Assembly (NCBI GenBank): GCA_018712725.1
Contig: DVGN01000071.1
Span: forward strand, 1-39,189
Reading direction: 5' to 3'
DNA length: 39,189 nt
Source of the DNA: Candidatus Scatosoma pullicola
GTDB lineage: Bacteria > Bacillota > Clostridia > Christensenellales > Borkfalkiaceae
Below the pieces are notes generated by a model. That model was not told the origin of the DNA. It did not search any database and saw only the letters and a list, made by a program, of their open reading frames with translations. Position numbers and translations under genes: made by a program. This document shows, piece by piece, positions 2,344-35,265 of this stretch; within the stretch, counting starts at the first letter, position 1, and each line of letters begins with the position of its first letter.

Positions 2344-2376
2344 CTATGTCAGACGTAATATATATGTCTGACATAA
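2344..2376. repeat. 33-bp paired palindromic element, copy A
   Basis: C-TATGTCAGACGTA-ATATA-TATGTCTGACATA-A; unit centres 2351 and 2369 (18 bp apart); arms complementary apart from one G.T pair and the outermost base. Confidence 0.8.
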
Positions 2377-2404
2377 TACGAAAGGAAGATAAAAAGGAGT
2401 TATT

Positions 2405-3649
2405 ATGACGGCAGAAGAACTGATCGAAGAGAGCGAACGGGCGCTCGCGCCCCGGTTCAGGGCGGTGGAAAGAATTGCGGAACACAACCAGGAAAAGGTT
2501 TTGAAGGCGTTTCAGGCATGCCGGGTGGCGCTTCGGCACTTCAATCCCTCCACGGGCTACGGCTACGGCGATGAAGGCAGATTTACGTTAGGCGAAGTAT
2601 TCGCCCTGTCGATGGGCGCGGAGGCGGGCATCGTGTCGCCCGCGATGCTCTCGGGAACCCATGCGTTGAGCGTGGCGCTGTTCGGCATTCTCCGCCCCGG
2701 CGACAAGGTGCTTTCCCTGTCGGGAATGCCCTACGATACCCTGCGCGGTGTCATCTGCGGGGAGGGGAACGGCTCTCTCAAAGATTTCGGGATTTCCTTC
2801 GAATGTCTCGATCTTTCTGAGGACGGGAAATTCGATATGCGCAAAGCGGCGGAGCGGATAAAGGCGCTCGGAAAGGATCTGCGCATGATTTATATCCAGC
2901 GTTCCCGCGGGTACGAACTGCGGGACGCCTTCACCGCGGACGAGATCGGGGAAGCGTGCTCCCGCGTGCGCGCGCTGGGCTTTGACGGGTGCATCTTCGT
3001 GGACAACTGTTATGGGGAATTTGTGGAGGAGAAGGAGCCCTGCGACGTGGGGGCGGACTTGGCGGTCGGCTCTCTCATCAAAAATCCGGGCGGGGGGCTC
3101 GCGCCGACGGGCGGGTACGTCGTCGGCAAAAAAGAATATGTGGAACAGATCGGGAAACGCCTGACGGCGCCTTCCGTCGGCAACGAAGTCGGGTCTTACG
3201 CCTACGGCTACCGCGCCTTTTACCAGGGGCTGTTTCTCGCCCCTCACGTCGTCGGACAGGCGGTGAAGGGAAGCCTTCTCATCGGCAAGTGCATGGACGC
3301 GCTGGGGTATGAAAATTTCCCCGCGATCGACAAGACGCCGGCGGACATCACCCGCGCGATCCGCTTCGATACGGAAAAACAGCTCTGCGATTTCATCCGT
3401 TCCGTGCAGGAGGCGTCTCCCGTGGACAGCTATGTGACGCCCGAACCCTGGGACATGCCGGGTTACGACAGCAAGGTCATCATGGCGGCAGGCTGTTTCG
3501 TGGACGGGGCGTCCATCGAACTTTCCGCCGACGCGCCCGTAAAACCGCCTTATACCGCCTATTTCCAGGGCGGGCTTACCTACGAACACTGCAAATACGC
3601 CCTGAAAAAAATCCTCGGCAAACTCATGCCCGCAAGAACGGCAGAGTGA
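2405..3649 (+). CDS. methionine gamma-lyase family / YnbB (aluminium resistance)-like PLP enzyme
   Basis: FNPSTGYGYGDEGR, SGTHALSVALFGILRPGD, PLP-lysine context GSLIKNPGGGLAPTGGY; located after miaA as in other Firmicutes. Confidence 0.88.
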   Translation: MTAEELIEESERALAPRFRAVERIAEHNQEKVLKAFQACRVALRHFNPSTGYGYGDEGRFTLGEVFALSMGAEAGIVSPAMLSGTHALSVALFGILRPGDKVLSLSGMPYDTLRGVICGEGNGSLKDFGISFECLDLSEDGKFDMRKAAERIKALGKDLRMIYIQRSRGYELRDAFTADEIGEACSRVRALGFDGCIFVDNCYGEFVEEKEPCDVGADLAVGSLIKNPGGGLAPTGGYVVGKKEYVEQIGKRLTAPSVGNEVGSYAYGYRAFYQGLFLAPHVVGQAVKGSLLIGKCMDALGYENFPAIDKTPADITRAIRFDTEKQLCDFIRSVQEASPVDSYVTPEPWDMPGYDSKVIMAAGCFVDGASIELSADAPVKPPYTAYFQGGLTYEHCKYALKKILGKLMPARTAE

Positions 3650-3660
3650 GGAGAACGGGT

Positions 3661-4155
3661 ATGGTAAACAACGGAACGGAATGCGCCGTCGACAGGATTA
3701 TACGGGCGACCGAACGCGAAATTCCCGGCATCGGCAGGCTGCTCGTGCAGGTCAACGACGTCCACGCCGCCGTCCGCCCCGACCTCTTTTGCAAAGGGGG
3801 CAGAAAGTATGCGGACGAGCAGCTCGAAAGCATATTGCAAGATTCCGGAACGCCGGTGTTTGTCGCATTGGACAAGGAGGGCGGGGTACTCGGCTATATC
3901 TTCTGCGCTTTCGAGCGGCGGACATACGGGGAGGGGGAGATCGTCACGCTGTATATAGACGATCTCTGCGTGGACGAAAGGGCGCGCGGATCGCATGTCG
4001 GAAGCGCGCTGCTGCAATACGCGGAGGACTTCGCCCGTTCGGCGGGGTGCTATAACGTCACTCTGAACGTCTGGGAGGGAAATGATGCGGCGCGGCGTTT
4101 TTATGAGGACAGGGGATTGATGAAACAAAAAACCGGGCTGGAAAAAATCCTTTGA
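3661..4155 (+). CDS. GNAT family N-acetyltransferase
   Basis: DDLCVDERARGSHVGSALLQYAEDFA acetyl-CoA binding motif and C-terminal NDAARRFYEDRGL; start chosen at the ATG after GAGGAGAACGGGT. Confidence 0.88.
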   Translation: MVNNGTECAVDRIIRATEREIPGIGRLLVQVNDVHAAVRPDLFCKGGRKYADEQLESILQDSGTPVFVALDKEGGVLGYIFCAFERRTYGEGEIVTLYIDDLCVDERARGSHVGSALLQYAEDFARSAGCYNVTLNVWEGNDAARRFYEDRGLMKQKTGLEKIL

Positions 4156-4179
4156 AACGCCCGTGGAAGGGGAAATGAT

Positions 4180-4770
4180 ATGAGATATTGCAAGAACTGC
4201 TATTTCGCTTTCGATCCGGCGTCTGAGCGCTGCCCCGTCTGCGGCAGCAAGGATTTCCGGGAAGCCGAAGCGGACGATTTTTGCCTTTTGCGGGAAGCGC
4301 GTCAGGCGGAAGCGGATGTTCTGGCGGATACTTTCGAAAGGATGGGGATCGCGTGTACGCTCATGCCGTACGGAAACGGATTGCGTCCCTATTTTGCCCT
4401 GCCGTCGGAATATTTCCGGATCTATGTGCCGTTTGCCTTTCTGGAAGAGGCGAAAAAAGTGCTGCGCGACAGGGAGAATGCCGAAACGGAAAGTCTGAGA
4501 AGCGTTTTGTCGGAAAACGCGGGGAAATTCCACGTCGGAACGCCGAAGGCGGAAAAGAAGATCCGGAAAAAGTGCAGACTTCCGAAAGAGATTGACCTTG
4601 CGGCGTTTTGCGCGCAAATCGCCGAAAACTCCGAAAAGATCATAGACGGCGGACCGATCACCACCTGGGAGGGCGGCAAATACCTCTTTTGCTTTTCGGG
4701 AGAATGGCGGCTGGCGGTCAACTCGGTAACGTTTGAAATTTTGTCCCTGACGCGGGAAAAGCAGAAATAA
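4180..4770 (+). CDS. hypothetical protein with N-terminal zinc ribbon
   Basis: MRYCKNCYFAFDPASERCPVCGSKDF has two CxxC pairs; followed by a terminator hairpin. Confidence 0.7.
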   Translation: MRYCKNCYFAFDPASERCPVCGSKDFREAEADDFCLLREARQAEADVLADTFERMGIACTLMPYGNGLRPYFALPSEYFRIYVPFAFLEEAKKVLRDRENAETESLRSVLSENAGKFHVGTPKAEKKIRKKCRLPKEIDLAAFCAQIAENSEKIIDGGPITTWEGGKYLFCFSGEWRLAVNSVTFEILSLTREKQK

Positions 4771-4811
4771 GGGAAAAGCGCCGAAAGGGGAAGCGCGCGT
4801 TCGGCTAAGAT

Positions 4812-4846
4812 AAAGGCTCCCGGATATTGATTCCGGGAGCCTTTTA
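4812..4846 (+). terminator. intrinsic terminator
   Basis: GGCTCCCGGA-N7-TCCGGGAGCC followed by TTTTA. Confidence 0.75.
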
Positions 4847-4884
4847 CTGCCACGTGAAACGAATTATTTTGCCGATTTTTCTTT

Positions 4885-5494
4885 TCAAAACAACGCCGCA
4901 ATGCGCTCTTTAATCCGGACAAATCCTTGCATGAAACGGCTTCTTTTCGGAAACAGCGCGGCACAATTTTCGTCAATTCCCCGCAAGACTCCTTACCCGA
5001 ACAATAAAACTCCAAAGAACGGGGCTTTAACGTGATCGCGTACTCCGCATCCGCGCGATCGCCGAGAATCATAAATTTCCCGGCGGTATAATGAATAAAG
5101 CCACGGGCGCAGACATCGTGTTCGGCGAATACCTCTTTAACGGTTTCGTCCGTTTGCACATATTCGCGGTACTCCCATTTTTTGCCGTAGGGCATCCGGT
5201 TGAGGATAAAAAAGACCATCGCCTCATCGTTATAATTTTTCTCATATAAGTTATAGCCGAGGACTTTGCCGTTTGCCGCCCACAGATAACCGTAATAAGA
5301 ATGGACGTAAGCGGGTGCTCCGAGTATCCGGCACGCCTTTTCGAATAAGGTTGAAAACCGTTCTTCCGTGACTTTCGCTTTCAGCGCGATCGCCTTTCCT
5401 TTGACAAAGTGACAAAGCTGAAAATCCCACTCAACGAAGACGTTTCGGTTTCATAGCCTTCTATGATTTCGCCTACCGTTTCCGCCGAAGTCAT
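4885..5494 (-). pseudogene. hypothetical protein gene disrupted by two frameshifts
   Basis: RBS (GGAGGG) and ATG at 5494 (MTSAETVGEIIEGYETE..), frame change near 5435-5450 into ..VFVEWDFQLCHFVKGKAIALKAK..LEFYCSGKE.., then near 4985-5000 into ..VLRGIDENCAALFPKRSRFMQGFVRIKERIAALF*, stop at 4885-4887, just short of the shared terminator hairpin. Confidence 0.65.
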
Positions 5495-5596
5495 TTTGCC
5501 TTTTCCCTCCGAAAGATACCGTTTTTCTGTATAAGGGCGAAAACAGACAAAAGGCGTGGGATGAAACCACGCCTTTTGTGTCTGTACCTTTTTCAA

Positions 5597-7231
<1,635 letters not shown>

Positions 7232-7272
7232 TTATCTCCTTAAATTGCCGAATTTATTTTCCGCCCGGGAAC

Positions 7273-7560
7273 TCAGTCCTCGACGACGGCGAGAATGTCG
7301 CTTTGCTTGATGATGGTGAATTCCTTTCCGTCCACTTTGAAATCGGAACCCGCGTACTTGGAGCAGAGGACTTTGTCTCCCACCTTCACCTGCATCTGCA
7401 CTTCTTTTCCGTCGATGATCCCGCCGGGACCGACGGCGACGACGATGCACGTCTGCGGTTTTTCCTGTGCCGAAGAGGGAAGGAAGAAGCCGCTCTTGGT
7501 CTTTTCTTCCACCGTCACGCTTTCCACGACAACTTTGTCGAACAACGGTTTGATGTTCAT
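7273..7560 (-). CDS. groES: co-chaperonin GroES
   Basis: MNIKPLFDKVVVE..KTKSGFFLPSSAQEKPQ..VGDKVLCSKYAGSDFKVDGKEFTIIKQSDILAVVE. Confidence 0.98.
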   Translation of the reverse strand: MNIKPLFDKVVVESVTVEEKTKSGFFLPSSAQEKPQTCIVVAVGPGGIIDGKEVQMQVKVGDKVLCSKYAGSDFKVDGKEFTIIKQSDILAVVED

Positions 7561-7644
7561 AATTGAAACCTCCGAAAGATTTTGTCCGCCCCCGCGGCAT
7601 AAGAGAGGCGCCGGGAAACGGGTCTGTTAATTTTTACCGTTATT

Positions 7645-7672
7645 ATTATAAACACCCGTCCCCGCTCCTCAA
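7645..7672 (-). promoter_or_regulatory. putative sigma-A promoter of groESL
   Basis: Minus strand TTGAGG-16 bp-TATAAT upstream of groES. Confidence 0.6.
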
Positions 7673-7743
7673 ACAGGGAAAAACAAAAATTGCGGGGAAA
7701 AGTTTATTTTTTCTTCCGGCGCTCCGTTTTCCCGCCCGAAAAG

Positions 7744-7772
7744 ATTGCGTTTTCGGAAAAAATATGATACAA
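7744..7772 (+). promoter_or_regulatory. putative sigma-A promoter of the dCMP deaminase gene
   Basis: TTGCGT-17 bp-TACAAT upstream of the 7797 start. Confidence 0.6.
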
Positions 7773-7796
7773 TGAGAATTCAGACGGGAGGATGTT

Positions 7797-8291
7797 ATGG
7801 CGGAAAACTCGGAAAAAAGATCGGACAGACGATCGGAAAAATGGGACAGGCGTTTTATGGAGCTGACGGAGACGGTCGCGGGCTGGTCGAGCTGTTTTCA
7901 GCCCAACCGGCACGTGGGCGCCATCATCGTCCGGGACAAGCGGGTGATGACGACGGGGTACAACGGCGCGCCCGCCGGCGTGAAGAGCTGTGAGGAAAAG
8001 GGGGAGTGCCTGCGGCGCAAACTCAACATCCCCAGCGGAACCCAGCAGGAACTGTGCTTTGCCGTCCACGCCGAGCAGAACGCCATCATCCAGGCGGCGA
8101 AATACGGCATTAACGTCAACGGCGCCACGCTGTACTGCACCCACCAGCCCTGCGTCATCTGCGCAAAGATGATCATAAATGCGGGGATTTCCCGGGTCGT
8201 GTACAAAAACGGTTACCCCGACGATTTTTCCCTGCGGCTCTTTGAAGAGGCGGGCGTCCGGGTGGAAAAGTACGGCGCCGGCGAGCCGTAA
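7797..8291 (+). CDS. deoxycytidylate (dCMP) deaminase, ComEB-like
   Basis: [21 protein letters not shown], zinc motifs VHAEQNAI and [13 protein letters not shown]. Confidence 0.94.
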
Positions 8292-8346
8292 AGCGAGGCA
8301 AAGACCTTCCGGAGACCGGAGGGAAAAGCATAAGGAGAATAAGATC

Positions 8347-8866
8347 ATGAATCCCATCGTAACTTTTGAAATGGAAGACGGCAAGACGTTCAAGGCGGAA
8401 TTGTATCCGGACAAGGCGCCCAATACCGTCAACAACTTTTTGTCTCTCGTGAAGAAAGGATTTTATGACGGACTCATCTTTCACCGCGTCATCTCCGGCT
8501 TTATGATTCAGGGCGGGGATCCGAACGGCACGGGAACGGGCGGCCCCGGCTACCGCATCAGGGGGGGAATTTTCGGGGAACGGCTTCAAAAAGAACGACA
8601 TTTCCCATAAGCGGGGCGTCCTGTCCATGGCGCGCGCGCAGAACCCCGATTCGGCGGGGTCGCAGTTTTTCGTGATGCACGCGGACGCCGACTATCTCGA
8701 CGGGGAATATGCGGCGTTCGGCGCCGTCGTCGAAGGGATGGACACAGTGGACGGTATCGCGTCCGTCAGGACGGATTGGGGCGACCGCCCTTATGAGGAA
8801 CAGAAAATCAAAAAGGCGACGGCGGAGACGTTCGGGCAGGAATATCCCGAACCGGAGACGCTGTAA
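8347..8866 (+). pseudogene. peptidyl-prolyl cis-trans isomerase (PpiB-type cyclophilin) with a single-base frameshift
   Basis: First half [72 protein letters not shown]; second half in another frame (..[35 protein letters not shown]..). The shift coincides with G7 at 8561-8567; G6 restores a canonical cyclophilin. Confidence 0.85.
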
Positions 8867-8910
8867 CCGCTAAAATCGCACCCATAATCCATAAACAATA
8901 CAGGAGAGAA

Positions 8911-10353
8911 ATGCAGATGGCAGATCATTCTATTTATCAGAATCCGCTTTGCACCCGTTATGCGAGCGCGGAGATGCAGCGGGCGTTTTCCGACGAAAAG
9001 CGCTTCAAGCTGTGGCGGAAGCTCTGGATCGCGCTCGCGGAGTCGGAGATGGAACTCGGGCTCAACATTACGCCCGAACAGGTCGCGGAGATGAAAAAGT
9101 ACGCCGACGACATCGATTACGATCTGGCGGATGCGTACGAAAAGGAAGTGCGCCACGACGTCATGGCGCACGTCAGGGCGTTCGGCGCGCAGGCGAAGAG
9201 CGCGATGCCCATCATCCATCTGGGGGCGACGAGCTGTTTCGTCAACTGCAATTCCGAAATCATCATGATCGACGAAGCGCTGGACATCGTTAAGCGCAAG
9301 CTCGTCAACGTCATGGACAAACTGAAAAAATTCGCCTTGAAATACAAGGATCTGCCCACGCTCGGATTCACCCACCTGCAGCCCGCCCAACTCACGACGG
9401 TCGGCAAGCGCGCGACGCTGTGGCTGCAAGATCTCGAAATGGACTATCTCGATCTGTGCGATCTGAAATCCCATGTAAAGCTGCGCGGCGTCAAGGGCAC
9501 GACGGGCACGCAGGCGAGCTTTATGGATCTTTTCGACGGGGACGAAGAAAAGGTCAGGGCGCTCGAAAAGAAGGTCGTCGAAAAGATGGGCTACGAAAAG
9601 GTGTACGGCGTCACGGGGCAGACGTATCCCCGCAAATTCGACTACAACGTCCTCTGCGTTCTGTCCCAGATCGCGCAGAGCGCCTATAAATTCTCCAACG
9701 ACATCCGCCTTTTGCAAAATATGAAGGAGATCGAAGAACCGTTCGAAAAGAATCAGATCGGCTCTTCGGCGATGGCGTACAAGCGCAATCCCATGCGCTG
9801 CGAACGCATCGGCTCGCTGGCGAGATACGTCCTGTCCCTGCCCGTCAACAGTGCGGTGACTGCTTCCACGCAGTGGCTGGAACGGACGCTCGACGATTCG
9901 GCAAACCGCCGCATCGTCAACGCGCAGGCATTTCTCGGCGTAGACGCGATCCTCAACATCTATATGAACGTCGCCGAAAATCTCGTCGTGTACGATAAGG
10001 TCATCACCAAACATATCCGCGCGGAACTCCCGTTTATGGCGACGGAAAACATCATCATGGAATGTGTCAAGGCGGGCGGAAGCAGACAGGAACTCCACGA
10101 ACGCATCCGCGTTCTTTCCATGCAGGCGGGGAAAAACGTCAAGGAAGAGGGGGGCGAAAACAACCTCATCGAACTCATCCTGAAAGACGAAATGTTCCGC
10201 TCCGTATGGGATAAAATGGACGAAATTATCGACGCGGATAAATTCATCGGCAGGGCGCCTTCCCAGACGGTCGAATTCATCCGGAACGAAGTCGATCCCA
10301 TTCTCGACGCCAACCGCGATTTGCTCGGCGAACGGGGAGACGTGCGCGTCTGA
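8911..10353 (+). CDS. purB: adenylosuccinate lyase
   Basis: Fumarase/ASL signature GSSAMAYKRNPMRCE, plus GFTHLQPAQLTTVGKR and VKGTTGTQASF. Confidence 0.96.
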   Translation: MQMADHSIYQNPLCTRYASAEMQRAFSDEKRFKLWRKLWIALAESEMELGLNITPEQVAEMKKYADDIDYDLADAYEKEVRHDVMAHVRAFGAQAKSAMPIIHLGATSCFVNCNSEIIMIDEALDIVKRKLVNVMDKLKKFALKYKDLPTLGFTHLQPAQLTTVGKRATLWLQDLEMDYLDLCDLKSHVKLRGVKGTTGTQASFMDLFDGDEEKVRALEKKVVEKMGYEKVYGVTGQTYPRKFDYNVLCVLSQIAQSAYKFSNDIRLLQNMKEIEEPFEKNQIGSSAMAYKRNPMRCERIGSLARYVLSLPVNSAVTASTQWLERTLDDSANRRIVNAQAFLGVDAILNIYMNVAENLVVYDKVITKHIRAELPFMATENIIMECVKAGGSRQELHERIRVLSMQAGKNVKEEGGENNLIELILKDEMFRSVWDKMDEIIDADKFIGRAPSQTVEFIRNEVDPILDANRDLLGERGDVRV

Positions 10354-10396
10354 CGCCGAGTTGTAAAATTTCATTCGATAAGAAGAAACTGTTTTC

Positions 10397-10440
10397 AAAT
10401 CAAAAAAGTCCTCTGTCGACGCAGGGGACTTTTTTGATTT
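10397..10440. terminator. bidirectional intrinsic terminator after purB
   Basis: AAATCAAAAAAGTCC ... GGACTTTTTTGATTT inverted repeat. Confidence 0.8.
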
Positions 10441-10485
10441 CTTTTGGAATGAATCCTGTGAAACTTATTTCGTGAAACACATACA

Positions 10486-10518
10486 CTATGTCACGCATAA
10501 TATATATGTCTATCATAC
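10486..10518. repeat. 33-bp paired palindromic element, copy B
   Basis: C-TATGTCACGCATA-ATATA-TATGTCTATCATA-C; unit centres 10493 and 10511 (18 bp). Confidence 0.7.
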
Positions 10519-10527
10519 ATATTTTAG

Positions 10528-10627
10528 TATCTCAGACATAATTTAGATGATGATAGCGTGAAAAACTACAACCTGTGTGACATAATAAAATTAATATTTT
10601 AGACATAATAATATTATTTCAGGCATA
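10528..10627. repeat. cluster of degenerate single units of the TATGTCnGACATA family
   Basis: TATCTCAGACATA (10528-10540), CCTGTGTGACATA (10572-10584), TATTTTAGACATA (10595-10607), TATTTCAGGCATA (10615-10627) in an AT-rich intergenic stretch. Confidence 0.55.
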
Positions 10628-10629
10628 GT

Positions 10630-11733: not shown

Positions 11734-11816
11734 GTCCGCAGTATATCGCAATCGGCGTTTTTTATGCCCGTTTTGTGAAGATACGGGAAAATTTTCCGTC
11801 CGGATTTGCGGGGAGG

Positions 11817-11845
11817 TTGACTTTTTTCCCGATTTGCGATATACT
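11817..11845 (+). promoter_or_regulatory. putative sigma-A promoter of citrate synthase
   Basis: TTGACT-17 bp-TATACT. Confidence 0.7.
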
Positions 11846-11915
11846 GACTTTATCACATTCGCGCGGCTTCTTTCGAAAGTGCCGCCGTTTGCAAAAAACG
11901 CCGGGAGGTGAAAAC

Positions 11916-15483: not shown

Positions 15484-15516
15484 CTATGCCGCGCATAACT
15501 ATTATGCGCGGCATAG
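15484..15516. repeat. 33-bp paired palindromic element, copy C (perfect 15-bp arms)
   Basis: CTATGCCGCGCATAA-CTA-TTATGCGCGGCATAG followed by TTTTT; unit centres 15491 and 15509 (18 bp). Confidence 0.85.
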
Positions 15517-15597: not shown

Positions 15598-16623
15598 ATG
15601 CAAAGAATCAGAGTGGTACAATACGGATGCGGCAAGATGGCGAAATATATTTTGCGCTATCTGCACGAAAAGGGCGCGGAAATCGTCGGGGCGATCGACA
15701 TCAATCCGGACGTTTTGGGCATGGACGTGGGCGATTTTGCAGATCTCGGCATCAAGACGGGAGTGCGCATTTCCGACGACGCCGACAAGGTGTTGGACGA
15801 ATGCGACGCCGACGTCGCCGTAGTGACCCTGTTCAGCTTTTTGGGGGACATTTACGAACAGGTGGAAAAGTGCGTGCGGCGGGGGATCAACGTCATCACG
15901 ACTTGCGAAGAGGCGATCTATCCCCGGACGACGGCGGCGAAGCTCACCAATAAGCTGGACGCGCTCGCCAAGGAACACGGCTGCACCGTCACGGGCAGCG
16001 GGATGCAGGATATTTTCTGGATCAATATGGTCGCGCTCGTCGCGGCGGGCTGTCATAAAATCGAAAAAATCAAGGGTGCATACAGCTATAACGTGGAGGA
16101 TTACGGGCTTGCGCTCGCCAAGGCGCACGGCTGCGATCTGACGAAAGAGGAATTCGAAAAGGAACTCGCGCACCCGACGGAAATCGTGCCCTCTTATGCC
16201 TGGAACGCCGCGGAGGCGATCTGCAACAAGCTGGGGCTGACCGTGAAGTCTATTTCGCAGAAAAACGTCCCGTATATCATAGATAAGGACATTTACAGCG
16301 CTACGCTCGGCAAGAAGATCAAGGCGGGCAGATGCATCGGCATGTCCGCGGTCGTCACGATTGAGACGATGCAGGGGATTGCGGTCGAAGAGGAGACGAT
16401 CGGCAAGGTATACGGGCCGGACGACGGCGACCTTTGCGATTGGGAGATCAAAGGGGAACCGAACGCTGCTTTCCGCGCGGATAAGCCGGCGACGGTGGAG
16501 CATACCTGCGCGACGATCGTCAATCGGATACCCTCTCTGCTGCGGGCGCCTTCCGGCTACGTCACGGCGGACGAACTCGACGAGATCCGCTATCTGACTT
16601 ATCCGATGCACTGCGAATTCTGA
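15598..16623 (+). CDS. 2,4-diaminopentanoate dehydrogenase-like / dihydrodipicolinate reductase N-terminal-domain protein
   Basis: [46 protein letters not shown] Rossmann start, [34 protein letters not shown]. Confidence 0.75.
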
Positions 16624-24030: not shown

Positions 24031-25278
24031 ATGAAAAGAGTGTGCGTGATCGGGGGCGGGGCGTCCGGATTGATGGCGGCGTATGCCGCCGCGAAAAACG
24101 GAAACGATGTGCTCCTGCTCGAAAAAAACGAAAAACTCGGCAAAAAGATCTATATCACGGGAAAGGGACGGTGCAATCTGACCAACGACACGACGCCCGA
24201 CTCCTTTTTCGAAAACGTCGTCCGCGGGGGGAAATTCCTCCGCGGTGCGATCTATGCCTTTCCGCCCCGCGAGACCATGCGCTTTTTTTCCGAACGGGGG
24301 CTCTCTCTGAAAACGGAGAGGGGAAACCGCGTCTTTCCCTCCTCCGATCACGCCAGCGACGTCACTAAAACGCTGGAAAAAGCCTGTCGGGAGGCGGGCG
24401 TCCGCATTCACCTCAACGAGACCGTTCTCCGGCTCTCTCAGCAATGTCCTATGTCAGACATAATTACTATGCCTCACATAGTCGGTGTGGTGACGGATAA
24501 AGAAACTTATGACTGCGACGCGGCGATTGTGTGTACGGGCGGATTGAGTTATCCCTCCACCGGCTCCACGGGGGACGGCTATCGCTTTGCGGCGGAAGCC
24601 GGGCATTCTCTCGTCGATCGGGTGCCGGCGCTGTGCGGCGTCGAACTCGAAGGGGATTTCTATAAAGACTTGCAGGGGCTGACGCTGAAAAACGTCGCTC
24701 TGAGCGCAAAGCGGGGGGATAAGTCCGTCTACGAAGGATTCGGAGAACTGCTCTTCACCCATTTCGGCATCTCCGGACCGCTGGCGCTGACCCTTTCTTC
24801 TCTCATCAACCGGATTCCCGCGCGGGAGCTGTCGCTGCGGCTGGATTTCAAGCCCGCGCTCGGCGAAGAGACGCTGGACAGGCGGATCCTGCGCGATTTC
24901 GAAAAGTACAAGAACAAGCGGCTTTGCAACGCGCTCGCCGATCTGCTGCCCGGAAAACTCATTCCGGCGGTGCTTGCCGCGGGCGGGTCGGACGGGATGA
25001 AGAGCGTGCATTCGGTCACGAGGGAAGAGCGGCGGAAACTGCTCGGCGCCCTGAAAGGATTTCCCATGCGGGTAAAGGGATTGCGGGGCTTTTCGGAAGC
25101 GGTGGTGACGTCGGGGGGCGTCAGTCTGTCGGAGATCAATCCCAAAACGATGGAGTCGAAAAGGGTAAAGGGGCTGTATTTTTGCGGCGAAGTGCTGGAT
25201 GCGGATGCGTTTACGGGCGGATTCAATCTGCAGATCGCCTTCGCGACGGGATACGCGGCGGGCAGCGGCATAAAATAA
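24031..25278 (+). CDS. NAD(P)/FAD-dependent oxidoreductase, HI0933 family
   Basis: VIGGGASGLMAAYAAAKNGNDVLLLEKNEKLGKKIYITGKGRCNLTND, CTGGLSYPSTGSTGDGYRFA, GGVSLSEINPKTMESKRVKGLYFCGEVLDADAFTGGFNLQIAFATG. Confidence 0.93.
   Translation: MKRVCVIGGGASGLMAAYAAAKNGNDVLLLEKNEKLGKKIYITGKGRCNLTNDTTPDSFFENVVRGGKFLRGAIYAFPPRETMRFFSERGLSLKTERGNRVFPSSDHASDVTKTLEKACREAGVRIHLNETVLRLSQQCPMSDIITMPHIVGVVTDKETYDCDAAIVCTGGLSYPSTGSTGDGYRFAAEAGHSLVDRVPALCGVELEGDFYKDLQGLTLKNVALSAKRGDKSVYEGFGELLFTHFGISGPLALTLSSLINRIPARELSLRLDFKPALGEETLDRRILRDFEKYKNKRLCNALADLLPGKLIPAVLAAGGSDGMKSVHSVTREERRKLLGALKGFPMRVKGLRGFSEAVVTSGGVSLSEINPKTMESKRVKGLYFCGEVLDADAFTGGFNLQIAFATGYAAGSGIK
24449..24481. repeat. 33-bp paired palindromic element, copy D, inside the HI0933-family CDS
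   Basis: C-TATGTCAGACATA-ATTAC-TATGCCTCACATA-G; unit centres 24456 and 24474 (18 bp); encodes ..PMSDIITMPHIV... Confidence 0.8.
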
Positions 25279-25312
25279 AGCGGAACCCGTGCAAAATGCC
25301 GTCGGAAATCGC

Positions 25313-26439: not shown

Positions 26440-26483
26440 CCGGTCAACAGAAAAATAAAAAAACGGACGGGAGAGGAAAGGAT

Positions 26484-27212: not shown

Positions 27213-27217
27213 CGGGC

Positions 27218-29374
27218 GTGGAAGTTCTGGTGGCAAAGAGCGGCGGATTTTGCCGCGGCGTAAAAAAGGCGGTGGATACGGCGTTTTCCGTCGATCCGGA
27301 GAACACATATATTTTCGGCGAGATCATCCACAACAAAGAGGTGGTTGACGCCATCACGAAGCGCGGGATCGTCACGGCGGAAAGCCTTTCGGAAGTGCCC
27401 GACGGCGCGACCCTCATCATCCGTTCGCACGGCGCCGGAAAAGCGGTGTACGACGAATGCGCCGCGCGCGGGATCAAAGTGGTGGACTGCACCTGCGAAT
27501 TCGTCCGCCGGACGCAGAAGATCGTAAAGGAACAGCACGAAGCCGGGAACGCGATCGTCATCGTGGGGGAGAGGACGCATCCCGAAGTGGTCGGGCTGAA
27601 CGGCTGGTGCGAAAACAGCGCCTGTATTTTTTCCTCCGAAGAGGACGATTTTTCCGTTTTGCCCGAAAAAAAGTGCTGTGTGGTCGCCCAAACGACCTAT
27701 TCCCGCGAAAAATTTGAAAAAATTATTAAAATTATTAAAGATAGACGTGGAAAAACAGTTGAAGTTTTCCAAACAATTTGCTATACTACTATAGGACGCC
27801 AGAACGAAGCGGAGAAACTCGCACGGCAGTGCGACGCGATGTTGGTCATCGGCGGTCTGAACAGCAGCAATACGGGAAAACTTTACGAGATATGCAAAAA
27901 GTACTGTAAACACGTTTTCCGCATGCGCAATTCGGACGATCTCGATTACGCGGCGCTCAAAGGATTCGGAAAGGTAGGTATCGTCACGGGTGCAAGCACC
28001 CCTGACGCGCAAACTCAGGAGGTTCTCTTAAAAATGGAAATGGAAACAGAAGCGAAAGCGACGATGGAACAGGACGTTGCGAACATTGACAACCCCGCGC
28101 CGGCTGCCGAACAGCCCGCCGCAAGCGTTGACAATCAAGCGACGATGGAAGAAGTCGTTGCGAACATGGACAGTCAGCCGAAGTTCAAGAAAGGTCAGCT
28201 GATCACTGCCACGATCTCCGTCGCGGACGACGCCGGAATTGCCGTGCTCCTTCCCAACACCAAAAAGGAAGTGCTGCTCGACAAGGACGAAGTGGACTGC
28301 GAAGTCTACAACAAGGAAGACTATGCGTCCAAGGTCGGCGAAGAGATCGAACTTATGGTGATGTCCGTGAATCCCGTCAAGCTCTCTCAGAAGATGATCA
28401 AGAAGGTCAAGGAAGAGGAAGCCATGATTGCCGACATCGAAGAGGGCAAGGAATTTTCGATCGTCTGCACGGGATACAATAAGGGCGGTCTGACGGGCGA
28501 GCTCGGTTCCTATACGGTGTTTGTCCCCGCGCGGGAAATCCGGTCGGGCTACGTCAAGGAGCTGGAGAAGTACGTCGGCAAAAAGCTCCGGCTCAGAAAG
28601 ATCGAGATCAAGCGCGATCGCAGAGTGCCCGAGATCATCGCTTCGCAGCGCGTCATCATCGAAGAGGAAAAAGCCGCCAGAGAAGCCGCCAAAGCGGCGA
28701 AAGAAGCGGAGTTCTTCGCGAACATTCACGTCGGCGACATCGTCGAAGGCAAGGTGGAAAGGGTCACCGGCTTCGGCGCGTTCGTCTCCGTGAACGGTTT
28801 TGACTGCCTCGCGCACATTTCCGACCTCTCCTGGACGGGGGTGAAAGCGGTTACCGACGTGCTTGAAATCGGCAAGAAGTACCAGTTCAAGGTGCTGAAA
28901 GTGGACGAGGAGAACAAGAAGGTCTCCATCGGCTACAAACAGCTTCAGCCTCAGCCTTGGGATCTTGCGGCGGAGAAATATGCGGAAGGCGACGTCATTC
29001 ACGGCAAGGTCGTCCGCATCGTTCCCTTCGGCGCTTTCGTCGAAGTGGAAAAGGGAATCGACGGGCTCGTTCACGTTTCCCAGATCTCCCACGAATATCT
29101 CGAAAATCCGACGACCGCGCTGAGCATCGGCGAAGAGATCGACGCGAAAATCCTTCGTCTCGACTGCGCGGAAAAGAAGATGAATCTTTCCATCAAAGCG
29201 CTGGAACCCAAGCCCGAAAACGTCGGCAGCCGCAGGGCGCCGAGAGGAGAGGGCGAAGAGGGCAAAGTCCGCACGCGCAGAGCGGGCAAGGACAGACCCG
29301 AAGACGAGTACACCGAATGGAACGAAGACGGCGTCGGCGGCGCTTCCATCGCCGAGATGCTCAAAAACTCCTGA
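27218..29374 (+). CDS. bifunctional 4-hydroxy-3-methylbut-2-enyl diphosphate reductase / S1 RNA-binding (30S ribosomal protein S1-like) protein
   Basis: IspH: VLVAKSGGFCRGVKKAVDTA, IRSHGAGKAVYDECAARGIKVVDCTCEFV, GLNSSNTGKLYEICK, TGASTPD. Then S1 domains (GDIVEGKVERVTGFGAFVSVNGFDCLAHISDLSW; GDVIHGKVVRIVPFGAFVEVEKGIDGLVHVSQIS). GTG start at 27218. Confidence 0.95.
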   Translation: MEVLVAKSGGFCRGVKKAVDTAFSVDPENTYIFGEIIHNKEVVDAITKRGIVTAESLSEVPDGATLIIRSHGAGKAVYDECAARGIKVVDCTCEFVRRTQKIVKEQHEAGNAIVIVGERTHPEVVGLNGWCENSACIFSSEEDDFSVLPEKKCCVVAQTTYSREKFEKIIKIIKDRRGKTVEVFQTICYTTIGRQNEAEKLARQCDAMLVIGGLNSSNTGKLYEICKKYCKHVFRMRNSDDLDYAALKGFGKVGIVTGASTPDAQTQEVLLKMEMETEAKATMEQDVANIDNPAPAAEQPAASVDNQATMEEVVANMDSQPKFKKGQLITATISVADDAGIAVLLPNTKKEVLLDKDEVDCEVYNKEDYASKVGEEIELMVMSVNPVKLSQKMIKKVKEEEAMIADIEEGKEFSIVCTGYNKGGLTGELGSYTVFVPAREIRSGYVKELEKYVGKKLRLRKIEIKRDRRVPEIIASQRVIIEEEKAAREAAKAAKEAEFFANIHVGDIVEGKVERVTGFGAFVSVNGFDCLAHISDLSWTGVKAVTDVLEIGKKYQFKVLKVDEENKKVSIGYKQLQPQPWDLAAEKYAEGDVIHGKVVRIVPFGAFVEVEKGIDGLVHVSQISHEYLENPTTALSIGEEIDAKILRLDCAEKKMNLSIKALEPKPENVGSRRAPRGEGEEGKVRTRRAGKDRPEDEYTEWNEDGVGGASIAEMLKNS
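27759..27787 (+). promoter_or_regulatory. possible internal promoter within the ispH part of the fusion
   Basis: TTGAAG-17 bp-TATACT in a locally AT-rich stretch. Confidence 0.4.
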
Positions 29375-29402
29375 GAACAGCAAAAAGGTCAGATCAGATA
29401 CA

Positions 29403-29440
29403 AAAAGTCCGCTTTTACCGATTAAAAGCGGGCTTTTTCG
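29403..29440 (+). terminator. intrinsic terminator
   Basis: AAAAGTCCGCTTTTA-N-TAAAAGCGGGCTTTTT. Confidence 0.75.
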
Positions 29441-29490
29441 TTTATATATAACTGTTGAAAATTTGGTCAACAGAAGGAGTCAATACAAAC

Positions 29491-31419
29491 ATGATGGAAG
29501 AAAAACAGGGCAACATAAAAATTTCCAGCGAAAACATGATGCCGATCATCAAGAAATGGCTGTATTCGGACAAGGATATTTTCCTGCGCGAAATCGTCGC
29601 CAACGGCGTGGACGCCATCACCAAGTTCAAAAAGCTCGTCGATATGGGGGAAGCGTCCATGGCGCCGGGAGAAGAATACCGGATCAACGTCTATACCGAC
29701 GAAAAGGCAAAGACGCTGACGGTGGAGGACAACGGTCTGGGCATGACCGCCGAAGAGGTGGAGAAATACATCACGCAGATCGCTTTTTCGGGCGCGGAGG
29801 ACTTCTTGCAGAAATATGAAAATGCGTCGGGGGACGGGATCATCGGCCATTTCGGTCTGGGATTCTATTCGGCGTACATGGTCTCTTCCGACGTGGAAAT
29901 CTTCACGAAGAGCTATAAGGACGAACCCGCCGTGCATTGGGAATCGGACGGCAATTCCACCTATACCATATCGGAAACGGACAAGTCCGACCGCGGCACG
30001 AAGATCGTCATGCACCTCGCGGAGGGAGAGGAGGAGTTCCTCAAAGAATACCGCATCCGCGAGCTTCTGCGCAAATACTGCTCGTTCATGCCCTATAACA
30101 TCTATCTGAACCCGAAGAATCCGAAGGGGATCGCTGAGGAAAAAGCCGCGGAAGAAGAGGCGAAGGACGCCGCGGAAGGGGAAGGCAAAGAGGAGAACAA
30201 GAAGGAGACGAAGGTTGAAGACAAGCCGATCAACAACACGTCGCCCCTTTATCTCAAAGATCCGAAGGACTGCACGGAGGAGGAATATAAGGATTTCTAC
30301 CGCGATACCTTCATGGACTACAACGAGCCGCTGTTCTGGATTCATCTGAACATGGATTATCCCTTCCGCCTAAAAGGCATTCTGTATTTTCCGAAGGTGA
30401 AGAAACAGCAGGTGCAGCTGGAAAAGGGACAGGTCAAGCTGTATTGCAATCAGGTATTCATCGCGGACAACATCAAGGAAGTCATTCCCGAATTCCTGAT
30501 GCTCCTGAACGGCGTCATCGACTGCCCGGACATCCCCTTGAACGTCTCGCGCAGTTTCTTGCAGAACGACAGGCAGGTGCAGAAGATATCCAAGCACATC
30601 ACCAAGAAGGTCGCCGACAAGCTGAACGCCCTCTTCAAAAACGACAGAACGAAATACGAAGAATGCTGGAAGGATATTTCGACGTTCATCAAATTCGGCT
30701 GCATCAAGGACGAAGAATTTTACGACAAGGTAAAGGACATCGTCATCTTCCGCAATCTGGCGGGCGAATACAAGCCGCTGTCCGACTGTTTCGGCGAAGA
30801 GGTGAGCGACGAAGACGCCGGAAAGGGGGTACAGCCCAAAGCCGTCTATTACGTCTCCGACGAAGCGCAGCAGGCGCAGTATATCAGGATGTTCAAGGAG
30901 GCGGGGCTGGACGCGATCGTCTGCGACGCCTTCATCGATCCGCACTTCATCAGTTTCGTGGAGTATAAAAATCCCCGCCGCTGCCGTTTCGTGCGCATCG
31001 ACGCGGACGTGGACGGCGCTTTGAAGAGCGATGAAGAGGTCAAGGCGGACGATCACAAAGACCTTATCGACCTCTTCAAAAAGGAACTCGTCAATAAGGA
31101 CATCGCGGTGAAGGCGGAAAAGTTCAAGAGCGACAAATTGCCCGCCGTCGTGAACGTCGAAGAATTCATGCGCCGGATGTCCGAAATGAATACCTTCTAC
31201 GGCATGGACGAATCGGACGTCATGAAGAACGCGACGCTCGTGCTCAATCTGTCCAATCCGATCGTGGCGGGAATCCTCTCCCAGCCGGAGGAAAAACAGA
31301 AGGTCATCGTCAATCAGATCTATTATCTGGCGATGCTCTCCTACAAAAAGCTCACGCCGGACGAGCTGTCCGCTTTCGTGGAAGAAAGCACCCGGCTTCT
31401 CGAAGATTATACCAAGTAA
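29491..31419 (+). CDS. htpG: molecular chaperone HtpG (Hsp90)
   Basis: DIFLREIVANGVDAITKFKKL, VEDNGLGMTAEEVEKYI, GHFGLGFYSAYMVS, DCPDIPLNVSRSFLQNDRQVQKI. Confidence 0.96.
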   Translation: MMEEKQGNIKISSENMMPIIKKWLYSDKDIFLREIVANGVDAITKFKKLVDMGEASMAPGEEYRINVYTDEKAKTLTVEDNGLGMTAEEVEKYITQIAFSGAEDFLQKYENASGDGIIGHFGLGFYSAYMVSSDVEIFTKSYKDEPAVHWESDGNSTYTISETDKSDRGTKIVMHLAEGEEEFLKEYRIRELLRKYCSFMPYNIYLNPKNPKGIAEEKAAEEEAKDAAEGEGKEENKKETKVEDKPINNTSPLYLKDPKDCTEEEYKDFYRDTFMDYNEPLFWIHLNMDYPFRLKGILYFPKVKKQQVQLEKGQVKLYCNQVFIADNIKEVIPEFLMLLNGVIDCPDIPLNVSRSFLQNDRQVQKISKHITKKVADKLNALFKNDRTKYEECWKDISTFIKFGCIKDEEFYDKVKDIVIFRNLAGEYKPLSDCFGEEVSDEDAGKGVQPKAVYYVSDEAQQAQYIRMFKEAGLDAIVCDAFIDPHFISFVEYKNPRRCRFVRIDADVDGALKSDEEVKADDHKDLIDLFKKELVNKDIAVKAEKFKSDKLPAVVNVEEFMRRMSEMNTFYGMDESDVMKNATLVLNLSNPIVAGILSQPEEKQKVIVNQIYYLAMLSYKKLTPDELSAFVEESTRLLEDYTK

Positions 31420-31444
31420 TGTAATTTTGACTGCATTTCCTCTG

Positions 31445-31481
31445 AAAGACGCTTTCCCTTGCGGGAGGGCGTCTTTTTTGT
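31445..31481 (+). terminator. intrinsic terminator after htpG
   Basis: AAAGACGC ... GCGTCTTTTTT. Confidence 0.7.
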
Positions 31482-31526
31482 ATCTTGCGGGCTTGCGGGA
31501 GCGGATTGAAAACCGAGCGGACAATC

Positions 31527-31943
31527 CCTCAGTCATGCTCCGCATGCCAGCTCCCTTTGCACAAGGGAGCCAAATATAGAGCCTCCCCTTATGGTAAGGG
31601 GAGGTGTCGAGCGGAGCGAGACGGAGGGGATAAGAAGGTCGGCTTTCGATAGTGCAAATTTGAAACGCTGAGATAAATCTGCAAAAAGGGTATCACTTGT
31701 TATGCTCTTTTTGCCCTTACGAAATGCGGAGCATGAGCAGGAAAGGAAGGGAACTTTGCCCCAACGGGGCAAAGAGGGAGGCGCGATATAGCGGAGCAGC
31801 GCTCCGCGCGCACGCGGTTGTCTCTCCGTTAAATCTTTTCTGCAGATTCTCGTACCATTTTTCCGCGAAAAAATGGTACGAAACAAAATGTAAGGGGAGG
31901 TGTCGAGCGGAGCGAGACGGAGGGGATAAGAAGGTCGGCTTTC
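31527..31943. repeat. composite intergenic repeat region flanked by a 54-bp exact direct repeat
   Basis: GTAAGGGGAGGTGTCGAGCGGAGCGAGACGGAGGGGATAAGAAGGTCGGCTTTC at 31594-31647 and 31890-31943. Internal hairpins AGCTCCCTTTGCACAAGGGAGC, CCTCCCCTTATGGTAAGGGGAGG, CTTTGCCCCAACGGGGCAAAG and TCGTACCATTTTTCCGCGAAAAAATGGTACGA. Confidence 0.85.
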
Positions 31944-32052
31944 AATGGCGTAAAACGAAATCCCTACATCAATCCGTCAAAAGGTATTGAAGGGAAAAAA
32001 CAACGAAAAAGATTTTGCGCGGAAGTTCTATTCGGACAAGCACGGGCATATA

Positions 32053-32916
32053 ATGATACAAATGCTGGGATTTCTTCCGAACAGAATCCGGGAGGCGCTC
32101 AGGCGCCTGAACGCCCGCAAGGTATATGAGATCCGCCTGCGCGCGGGAAAGCCCGTCCGTATCAATTACGAGGGGAAATACCGGTATCTGGGCGAATACG
32201 GCGTGACGGACAAGTCCTCCTCCGCGCTCACCGTGTCCCTTGCCGAGATCGGCGACGTCGTGTTTTCCGCCGGAAAATTTTCCGTCTATTCGGTGGAAGA
32301 GCAGCTCCGGCAGGGCTTTCTGACCGCGGACTGCGGGGAGCGGATAGGGCTCGCGGGGCAATATGTGTCCGAAAAGGGAAAGCCGCTCGCCATGCGGGAT
32401 TTTACCTCCCTCTGCATCCGGGTCCCGCACGAAATAGAGGGCTGCGGCGACGAAATTTACGACGAATGCCTGCAAGGCGGTCTGCGCAGCGTCCTCGTCA
32501 TGTCTCCGCCGGGCATCGGCAAGACGACGATTTTGCGGGATCTGAGCCGCCGTCTCAGCCGGGAGACGGAAAAAAACATTCTCGTCTGCGACGAACGCGG
32601 AGAAATATCCGCGGGGGACACGGGAGATACGAGCGACGTTTTGCTGTTCGCGGACAAGGCGACCGCGTTTGAAGCGGGAATCCGCGCGATGCGGCCGGAC
32701 GTCATGATCACGGACGAGCTGTCCGACGCGGATTGCGCCGCCGTCCGGCGGGCGATCGACGGCGGCGTGAAAGTCATCGCCTCCGCGCATTTCGGCGGGA
32801 TGGAGGAATTGCGGCCGCCCTTCGTCGGACTTTTTGAAAGGTATGCTCTGTTGGACGTCCGGTCGGTCGGAAAACTTTCGGGCATTTACGACGAACGGGG
32901 GCGGAAACTGCGGTGA
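32053..32916 (+). CDS. spoIIIAA: stage III sporulation protein AA (start codon uncertain; frame open from 31987)
   Basis: GFLPNRIREALRRLNARKVYEIRLRAGKPVRI, Walker A SPPGIGKTTILRDLSRRLS, CDERGEISAG, MRPDVMITDEL; followed by the spoIIIAB-AH array. Confidence 0.93.
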   Translation: MIQMLGFLPNRIREALRRLNARKVYEIRLRAGKPVRINYEGKYRYLGEYGVTDKSSSALTVSLAEIGDVVFSAGKFSVYSVEEQLRQGFLTADCGERIGLAGQYVSEKGKPLAMRDFTSLCIRVPHEIEGCGDEIYDECLQGGLRSVLVMSPPGIGKTTILRDLSRRLSRETEKNILVCDERGEISAGDTGDTSDVLLFADKATAFEAGIRAMRPDVMITDELSDADCAAVRRAIDGGVKVIASAHFGGMEELRPPFVGLFERYALLDVRSVGKLSGIYDERGRKLR

Positions 32917-32923
32917 AAGGGCC

Positions 32924-33403
32924 ATGATCAAATTTATTCTCGGCGCGGCGATCGTCTGTTTTACGAGTTTTTGCGGATATGTATTCGCGAAGAAATACCG
33001 CCGCCGCAAAAATTTTTTCGCACAGATGAACGAATTCAACGAGCGCTTTTTAAGCGAAATCGCCTATTACCGCCGCCCGGTGGAAGAATTCGCGGGCAGA
33101 TACGAATACAAGGGAGATTTCGAAATTCTTCTTTCCTCTTTTCTCGATTCTCTGGGGGAGGAAGACGCCGGTCCGCTTCCGGTTTTTTCCTTCCTGACGG
33201 CGGACGAAACGGGGTTCGTGAAAGACTATTTTCTCATGGTCGGCAAAGGGGACAGCGCGTCGCAGAGCGCCTATTTCACCTCCGTGAAGGGGACGCTCGG
33301 CGAATATCGGAAAAAGAGCGCCGACGAATGCAGGCGATACGGGGATCTGTATCTGAAACTCGGATTTCTGTTCGGATTGATGATCCTCGTACTCATCGTA
33401 TAG
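32924..33403 (+). CDS. spoIIIAB: stage III sporulation protein AB
   Basis: Position in the spoIIIA operon, N-terminal TM, size and conserved GDSASQSAYF..Y..LGFLFGLMILVLIV tail. Confidence 0.88.
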   Translation: MIKFILGAAIVCFTSFCGYVFAKKYRRRKNFFAQMNEFNERFLSEIAYYRRPVEEFAGRYEYKGDFEILLSSFLDSLGEEDAGPLPVFSFLTADETGFVKDYFLMVGKGDSASQSAYFTSVKGTLGEYRKKSADECRRYGDLYLKLGFLFGLMILVLIV

Positions 33404-33406
33404 ATT

Positions 33407-33604
33407 ATGGATATTTCGATACTTTTCAAAATCGCCGCCGTCGGCATCATCGTCACCGTGATTTGCCAGATCCTCAAAAAATCCGATCGGGACGACATCG
33501 CCACCGTCGTGAGCATCGTCGGTCTTCTTCTCGTTCTCGGCATCGTCGTCAGCATGGTGGGAGATCTGTTCGGTCAGATACGGGACATTTTCGGTCTTAC
33601 GTAG
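33407..33604 (+). CDS. spoIIIAC: stage III sporulation protein AC
   Basis: 65 aa, two TM segments, ILFKIAAVGIIVTVICQILKKSDRDDIA. Confidence 0.92.
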   Translation: MDISILFKIAAVGIIVTVICQILKKSDRDDIATVVSIVGLLLVLGIVVSMVGDLFGQIRDIFGLT

Positions 33605-33643
33605 CAATGCCGTGAAATTGCGGGACAAGCAGAGGAGTTTACC

Positions 33644-34036
33644 ATGGAAATTTTCAGAATCATAGGGGTGGCGTTCGTCACCGCGGTCGCGGCGATCGTG
33701 CTGAAATGCAGCAAGCCCGAACTTTCTTTTGCCGTCACCGTCACGGGCGTCGTCATCATCCTCATCTTCGTGGCGGACATGCTGCAAAATACCGTCAACA
33801 TCATCTCATCGATCGCCGGGATGACGGGGATCGAAAACGGACTCATCAAGATCCTTTTGAAGATCGTGGGGATCGGGTATCTCACCGAATTCAGCGCCGG
33901 GCTTTTAAACGACTTCGGAAGCAATGCGGTCGCGGATAAAGTCACGCTCGCGGGGAAGCTCACCATTCTGGTTTTATCCCTCCCCGTCATCGAAAGCGTT
34001 CTGGGACTCATCCGCGGATTTTTGGAACTCGTATGA
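33644..34036 (+). CDS. spoIIIAD: stage III sporulation protein AD
   Basis: VTGVVIILIFVADML..LLKIVGIGYLTEFSAGLLNDFGSNAVADKVTLAGKLTILVLSLPVIESVL. Confidence 0.93.
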   Translation: MEIFRIIGVAFVTAVAAIVLKCSKPELSFAVTVTGVVIILIFVADMLQNTVNIISSIAGMTGIENGLIKILLKIVGIGYLTEFSAGLLNDFGSNAVADKVTLAGKLTILVLSLPVIESVLGLIRGFLELV

Positions 34037-34044
34037 CAGACATA
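34032..34044. repeat. single unit of the palindromic family at the spoIIIAD/spoIIIAE junction
   Basis: TATGACAGACATA, spanning the spoIIIAE start codon; only a weak partner follows at +17. Confidence 0.45.
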
Positions 34045-35265
34045 GTTTCATGTTTGCCCGTATGGGGGCGCAAGAGGAAAAAAAGAGGGCGGAAAAAGGC
34101 TTTTTTCATCCTGGCCGGCATATTTGTCTGCTTATTTCTGTTGCTGAATATGACAGGCATAGTATTCCCTTCCGCGGAGGAGACGGACGGGCGGGAGGAA
34201 CTCAACGAAAGCATTCTCGAACAGATCGGAGAGCTGGATATAGAAGCCTTGCAGGAATACGTGGATTCGCTGGAAGGTTTTTCGGACGAGAGCGTGGCGG
34301 ACAGGCTATATGATTACATCAAGGGGGAAGCGTTCGACTACGGAAGTTTTGCTTCGCAGATGCTGGATGTCTTTTTCGGCGACATAAAGCAGATGCTTCC
34401 GGCGTTTGCGTGTATCTGCGCCGTCTCCCTCCTGTGCGGGCTGCTGTCGTCGGTGAAGAGCGGCTTTACCGATCCTTCTTCGGCGGACATGATCTTTCTC
34501 ATCTGCTATGCGGCGGCGCTCATCCCCGTCCTTTCGGTGCTTACGGAGTGTTTTTCGAAAGCGGGGGAATGCGTGGACTCGATGCGGGAACAGATGCAGA
34601 TCGTCTATCCGCTCCTTCTGACGCTGATGGCGGCGGGGGGCGGGAGCGTTTCCGCCGCGATTTACCGGCCGGCGGTGAGTTTTCTGAGTACGGCGCTCGT
34701 CTCCCTCGTCTCGGGTGTCGTGCTGCCGCTCACGATTGCGATCATCGCCTTTTCGATGGCGGGGAATTTTACGTCGGAACTCAGACTCAACAAGTTTTCC
34801 GCCTTTTTCAAGAGCATCAACAAATGGATCATGGGCGCGGGGATCTCCGTTTTCGGCCTCTTTCTCACGGTGCAGGGGCTGACATCCGCGACGTACGACG
34901 GAATCGTGCGGCAGGCGGCGAAATACGCGATCGGAACGGGAGTGCCCATCGTGGGCGGCTTTCTGTCGGGCGGGTTCGATCTCGCCGTGGCGGGGAGCAT
35001 CCTCATCAAAAATTCGCTCGGCAGCCTGAGTATCTTTCTCCTGGTCGCCGTGTTGTTCGAGCCGCTCGTGCTGCTCATCGCCGCCAATCTCTTTCTCCGC
35101 CTGACGGCAGCCGTCACGCAGCCGTTCGGGGAGAGCCGCATTTCCGATTTTTTGGGGGAGACGGCGGACAATCTCAACTATTGCACGGCGGGGCTGCTGT
35201 TTGTCGGGTTTTTGTATTTCATCAGCATCGTTCTCATCATCTGTTCTTCGGAGGTGCTGTTTTGA
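34033..35265 (+). CDS. spoIIIAE: stage III sporulation protein AE
   Basis: Multi-TM protein with GVVLPLTIAIIAFSMAGNF, KSINKWIMGAGISVFGLFLTVQGLTSATYDGIVRQAAKYAIGTGVPIVGGFLSGGFD. Confidence 0.94.
   Translation: MTDIVSCLPVWGRKRKKRGRKKAFFILAGIFVCLFLLLNMTGIVFPSAEETDGREELNESILEQIGELDIEALQEYVDSLEGFSDESVADRLYDYIKGEAFDYGSFASQMLDVFFGDIKQMLPAFACICAVSLLCGLLSSVKSGFTDPSSADMIFLICYAAALIPVLSVLTECFSKAGECVDSMREQMQIVYPLLLTLMAAGGGSVSAAIYRPAVSFLSTALVSLVSGVVLPLTIAIIAFSMAGNFTSELRLNKFSAFFKSINKWIMGAGISVFGLFLTVQGLTSATYDGIVRQAAKYAIGTGVPIVGGFLSGGFDLAVAGSILIKNSLGSLSIFLLVAVLFEPLVLLIAANLFLRLTAAVTQPFGESRISDFLGETADNLNYCTAGLLFVGFLYFISIVLIICSSEVLF
34149..34161. repeat. second single unit in spoIIIAE
   Basis: TATGACAGGCATA, 117 bp (39 codons) downstream of the 34032 unit and in the same codon phase. 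Confidence 0.4.

Follow-up and report, generated by a model that had tools for sequence, protein, structure and literature searches.

The 39,189-nucleotide contig DVGN01000071.1 of Candidatus Scatosoma pullicola (the window; contig C40 of the source genome, G000, 1.99 Mb in 112 contigs) carries four copies, A to D, of a pair of 13-bp dyads, TATGYCnGRCATA. These dyads are probably (probability about 0.6) the specific sites at which a DNA-binding protein with a membrane anchor marks and tethers the replication terminus region, as judged from sequence comparisons among related Clostridia. The sites cluster around the terminus, single sites lie beside the recombination site dif, other sites lie within genes or at their 3' ends, and the candidate binder, a PadR-type protein, has a predicted membrane anchor. 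Together these features argue for a structural role.

We searched for TATGYCNGRCATAN5TATGYCNGRCATA with up to three mismatches, and used dinucleotide shuffles of the window and, for genomes, the reversed pattern as controls. The window matches were exactly copies A to D (n=4), with the positions and letters given in a preliminary description of this DNA, and there were none in 100 shuffles, so the excess of copies is real. The 18-bp spacing between dyad centres was also seen beyond these four copies. G000 has 12 pair places (control, 0), and pairs were found in 35 of 41 genomes of the window's genus (g1; controls near 0) and in all nine of its good-quality genomes. A scan of 84,980 species genomes yielded 76 stretches with a pair, nearly all from uncultured Clostridia; the exceptions were one Prochlorococcus and two contigs of one Patescibacteria assembly. 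In the latter (REEB237), TATGTCCGACATA-N5-TATGTCGGACATA pairs are at L111:2007-2037 and L133:3073-3103, and their neighbouring genes are non-homologous. When a 31-bp weight matrix was run over 630 kb of genome G038, every match scored at least 29 and none fell between 12 and 29. The matrix sets the sites cleanly apart, and in G038 they are all-or-none.

The outer flanks of the dyad favour TA(C/T). In g1 the dyads form pairs with centres 18 bp apart and a 5-bp gap, sometimes rows of three or four at the same 18-bp period, and the pairs are often doubled at a distance of about 40-85 bp. Genus g5 has, in addition, pairs spaced at 15 and 19 bp as well as single dyads. Thus the fixed 18-bp spacing first described holds for the four copies, but it is not the sole arrangement. 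The larger inverted repeat that each copy was said to form is perfect in some copies, for example copy C. However, the outer arms matched at 3.03 of 5 positions compared with 2.95 +/- 0.08 after shuffling, an analysis in which letter frequencies are biased because the patterns of the genus and species-genome scans favour TATGTC on one side (a further search used an unbiased pattern). The two halves therefore vary independently, and the larger inverted repeat is not a conserved property. The element is thus best described as two protein-binding dyads and not as a hairpin. A hairpin or RNA element was ruled out on the same ground, since the arms do not co-vary.

Clustering of the sites around dif

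In G038, G034, and G036, which have long contigs, the site-bearing contig includes the flip from positive to negative guanine-cytosine (GC) skew. The cumulative skew maximum is at 191,865 (G038 C5), 42,737 (G034 C10), and 92,346 (G036 C7), and a dif-like palindrome, TTCGTAAAA-N6-TTTTACGAA, is found 0.1-3.6 kb from it, at 195,450, 42,619, and 95,964, respectively, adjoining a XerS-like recombinase gene. Relative to this dif-like site, the dyad sites are at about -30, -11, +9, +72, +79, and +108 kb in G038, at about -32, -13, +11, +71, and +98 kb in G034, and at about -63, -29, -11, +9, and +62 kb in G036. The probability of such clustering under random placement is 3e-5 to 1e-4 per genome, and the three values are not independent since the genomes share ancestry. 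dnaA is on contigs other than the site-bearing ones. In G000 the dif-like site is at 19,068 of contig C37, and most of the conserved genes of the window have congener orthologues within about 80 kb of dif.

The link to dif was also seen in related genera. Among 398 genomes of the family, pairs were found in 47 of 57 g1 genomes, and one pair per genome was found in 33 of 103 g5 and 7 of 93 g4 genomes. In g4 and g5 the pair is between the end of a GH13 or glycogen phosphorylase (glgP) gene and xer, a few hundred bp from dif; genomes with no pair often have a single dyad or a 15/19-bp pair in the same gap. G138 (g4) has its skew maximum at 101,197, dif at 101,421, and the nearest pair at 101,225; none of its six exact dyads is more than 92 kb from dif. 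For G210 (g5) the corresponding positions are 93,559 for dif and 93,704 for the skew maximum, and the dif contig carries all four exact dyads. Dyads in g4 and g5 are frequently inside genes or between convergent genes. Short palindromes confined to the terminus, as in the MatP/matS system, were found in G034, G036, G038, G138, and G210, with G066 as an exception. A regulon of glycogen genes (glgA, glgP, and GH13 are near sites) was considered and rejected, as these genes simply flank dif.

The XerS-like gene encodes a single tyrosine recombinase (G038:C5:194069-195474; L090:3560-4996; other loci) that matched NF003462 with 203 bits, below the cut-off of 267. A conserved dif-like site, ACTATTCGTAAAA-N6-TTTTACGAATAGT, adjoins it, several g5 loci have a further dif half-site over the xer promoter, and a LexA gene, whose product was considered as a binder of the dyads, is near xer. 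The position of the g4 and g5 pair, upstream of xer and so close to dif, would suit an accessory or recombination site bound by the Xer system itself. This is highly improbable: the same gap holds a distinct dif-like site that is conserved, the GH13-xer gap of g1 lacks a pair, and recombination sites 100 kb apart, as g1 would have, would delete or invert the terminus. The dyad was also rejected as dif, which has two arms of about 11 bp and a core of 6-8 bp, whereas the dyads, palindromes of 13 bp, are separated by 5 bp.

A location at the terminus would also be expected of a polar replication-fork trap such as Tus/Ter or RTP/Ter, and the two neighbouring dyads per site recall the A and B sites of RTP Ter. 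The sites showed no polarity towards dif, which speaks against a trap: spacer orientation was split 10:7, and the better half-site was distal in 10 cases and proximal in 13. Moreover, spacer orientation varies within the same orthologous place, and forks would be trapped if several flanking sites blocked them without polarity. The RTP family (PF02334) was absent from nine genomes, with a positive Bacillus subtilis control. We therefore regard a fork trap as very unlikely.

Seven position classes are common to several species. Recurring places are in a HI0933-like gene (copy D), after spoIVB, upstream of coaE, in argS, and at miaA/methionine gamma-lyase (copy A), sigma-factor gene/pyk, and Rce1-like gene/solute-binding protein gene. 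The site is retained where the flanks differ. Genes next to the sites are unrelated and vary from genus to genus, while the association with dif is maintained. The preliminary description had suggested a mobile or dispersed palindromic element, comparable to REP, BOX, or Rickettsia palindromic elements. A repeated palindrome is what such an element would look like, and copy D, which lies in frame in a protein loop, resembles the Rickettsia elements, which sit in frame in protein loops. However, the sites are at orthologous positions, not inserted at non-orthologous ones, and are mostly confined to the terminus; they stay where flanks differ; their halves vary freely with no conserved hairpin and no co-varying arms; and the same dyad is present in the promoter of a gene for a DNA-binding protein. 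A mobile element is therefore disfavoured and extremely improbable.

A PadR-type candidate binder

The candidate binder is encoded at 17,838-21,284 of contig C20 of G000, on the same contig as the sigma-factor gene/pyk site. It consists of a PadR winged helix, a long coiled coil, and four C-terminal hydrophobic helices. G034, G036, and G038 have orthologues within their terminus region. A single copy of the gene, mostly near the terminus, was found in 27 of 30 genomes; on contigs that also hold the site or xer, its distance from either is 39-125 kb, and in g7, g8, g11, g13, g15, g16, and g18 it adjoins xer. The winged helix belongs to PF03551 (70.8 and 58 bits against a curated cut-off of 27; E values of 1e-16 to 1e-19), and solved PadR structures match it at about 1e-26 (PDB chains). 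By this domain the candidate is a PadR-family member, and the remainder is unlike the described members. The length of the coil varies while both ends are kept, and complete proteins have about 390-1200 residues (transmembrane profiles are incomplete for end-cut loci, and the frame-error rows G036, L296, L302, L312, and L314 were left out). Across the order, relatives were found in 162 of 246 good genomes, some of the matches being short ordinary PadR proteins.

The dyad is present in the promoter of the PadR-type gene in 13 of 14 g5 and all 10 g4 genomes, usually just upstream of the -35 box, as well as in 6 of 11 g1 genomes, 1 of 3 g2 genomes, and single examples from g9, g11, and g15. The background frequency is about one dyad per 300 kb (G038 C6). 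Furthermore, dyad-bearing genera have a recognition helix of the (Q/E)(P/A)(T/S)LYS type, while in g7, g8, g13, and g16 the helix is QGTFYS or QSSFYS and dyads are absent. Known targets of PadR regulators are inverted repeats of ATGT/ACAT, though with a wider spacing than here, and such regulators can control their own promoters (PMC5050560). Because the promoter dyad, the match with the recognition helix, and the known repeat binding and autoregulation of the family agree, the PadR domain very probably binds the dyad. Small open reading frames beside the sigma-factor gene/pyk site were also considered as the binder and were rejected, as they are not conserved. In L341 and L346, from another family (f32), the PadR-type promoters have a related dyad, TACTATGCC..AAATAGTA, in place of TATGTCnGACATA, possibly through operator co-evolution.

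We propose that the PadR domain binds TATGTCnGACATA as a dimer, so that a paired site would carry two dimers and an array a row of them; TATGTCAGACATA is its proposed target dyad. Through the promoter dyad the protein might tune its own gene. The coiled coil would keep the terminus at the inner membrane face, and in this way FtsK/SpoIIIE and Xer/dif could act on a terminus that is organised or placed at the division site. We infer the step from binding to tethering from the architecture of the protein alone. The preliminary description had offered paired operators for a dimeric regulator as its other explanation. The binding mode is in line with this, as the dyads are probably protein-binding sites with a PadR-family dimer as the likely binder, but a mere regulator is not favoured.

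The main alternative is a membrane-bound transcription factor with a small regulon, in which the PadR protein responds to a membrane signal, the dyads serve as ordinary operators, and the clustering results from the chance location of its target genes. PadR proteins are classically repressors, the gene has a dyad in its own promoter, and several sites are 15-150 bp upstream of genes (mgl, dacF-like, coaE, and sigma factor). On the other hand, many sites are intragenic (HI0933; argS; G138 71488, 86279, and 113135; G231 46562), others are between convergent genes or at 3' ends, and the flanking genes are unrelated and change from genus to genus whereas the link to dif is kept. This alternative is thus rather unlikely.

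Several observations weigh against terminus tethering by the PadR-type protein. Sites by the mgl, coaE, sigma-factor, and dacF-like genes could regulate those genes too. One site class (G038 C6, G034 C12, G036 C8) is on a contig other than that of dif, and in G066 (g2) the numerous dyads are spread over nine contigs; in some species the set is thus not obviously terminus-only. As for the binder, some g1 and g2 PadR-type promoters hold only degenerate dyads, and g12 has an LYS-type helix but no dyad of this form. In addition, the ATGT and ACAT of published PadR operators are 8-10 bp apart (PMC5050560), compared with 3 here.

Contigs C7 and C2 of G066 (L385-L390) carry a dense set of dyads, with about 15 in 80 kb of C7. 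In G066 and G248, part of the sites were placed.

Individual sites of the window

Copy A (2344-2376) is between miaA (stop at 2341) and the methionine gamma-lyase gene (start at 2405), and an orthologous miaA-mgl site was found in about a dozen other species. Copy D (24449-24481) is intragenic, as first described: it lies in frame within a HI0933/BaiN-like flavoprotein gene (24031-25278), and at least four congeners share this position. It falls in a variable protein loop about 7-9 residues longer than in solved homologues (2i0z, 4cnj), and the gene has thus made room for the site in frame.

Copy B (10486-10518) is in an AT-rich gap downstream of purB (8911-10353). One extra single half-site, TATCTCAGACATA (10528-10540), adjoins it and another, TATTTCAGGCATA (10615-10627), is near it; several degenerate half-sites are present in this gap between 10528 and 10627. 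Copy C (15484-15516) is upstream of a 2,4-diaminopentanoate dehydrogenase-like gene (15598-16623). It is a perfect 33-bp inverted repeat and has the lowest weight-matrix score of the four (26.7). Its neighbouring genes were not found near the terminus of three congeners, and thus copy C looks local. There are two further single half-sites, both of which may be due to chance: TATGACAGACATA (34032-34044) overlaps the start codon of spoIIIAE and TATGACAGGCATA (34149-34161) is inside this gene.

Elsewhere in G000, two degenerate pairs are over the start of a U32-peptidase-like gene (G000:C10:19736-19818), and a similar arrangement is present at G009:C52:1231-1318. MSD/MSE start codons (ATGTCTGA) are a partial explanation for these pairs.

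Relation to known systems

The RTP/Ter system of B. subtilis also has paired winged-helix sites at the terminus and a gene near its sites. It differs from the dyads in that PF02334 was not found in the nine genomes and that the dyads are non-polar. The Firmicute proteins RacA, Noc, and RocS, compared by description, link DNA to the membrane by a DNA-binding domain together with a coiled coil or membrane-binding part. Unlike the terminus candidate, they act at the origin or over the nucleoid.

The candidate shares with PadR regulators (PF03551; LmrR, cdPadR1, PDB 1xma, 9qbc) the N-terminal winged helix, the ATGT/ACAT dyad, and a sign of autoregulation. Solved PadR members are small and soluble (about 100-190 amino acids), whereas the candidate has about 390-1200 amino acids with a coiled coil and four transmembrane helices, and the operator spacing differs. 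In the literature searched, we found no description of the dyad system or of a PadR protein with a coiled coil and four transmembrane helices. If the proposed role is true, a PadR regulator became a chromosome anchor through the addition of a membrane domain and a coiled coil, and this anchor may tie the chromosome end to the cell membrane in a group of uncultured gut bacteria.

The organisation of the terminus and its link to the division site have been worked out in enterics (MatP) and, in part, in Caulobacter (ZapT), and are open for most bacteria (PMC7188993). A sequence-defined site and a named candidate protein in a large order of Clostridia make this question directly testable outside Proteobacteria, and hundreds of genomes are on offer for studying site-protein co-evolution. 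ZapT/ZauP of Caulobacter crescentus (PMC7188993, PMC7858052) resembles the candidate by description, being a terminus-preferring DNA-binding protein of a non-enteric bacterium with a proposed role in coupling the terminus to the division site. Unlike the dyads, however, ZapT has no known consensus DNA site (PMC7188993). Whether the PadR-coiled-coil transmembrane protein represents a new class of terminus tether, widespread in an order of uncultured Clostridia and replacing the MatP-ZapB-ZapA bridge, is evenly balanced on the sequence comparisons.

On the best reading, the dyad system would work like MatP/matS, to which it is unrelated in sequence. The sequence of matS is GTGAC..GTCAC; that of the dyads is different, and the dyads are often paired or in rows at 18 bp. 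The MatP family (PF06303) was not found in the nine genomes, with a positive Escherichia coli control. MatP has been described as restricted to enterics (PMC7188993). What the two systems share are 13-bp palindromes on both sides of dif, absence of polarity, and one dedicated protein, as in the Ter macrodomain of E. coli (PMC3330122, PMC7188993). The PadR-type candidate, with its coiled coil and four transmembrane helices, would have its own direct membrane anchor instead of the ZapB-ZapA bridge.

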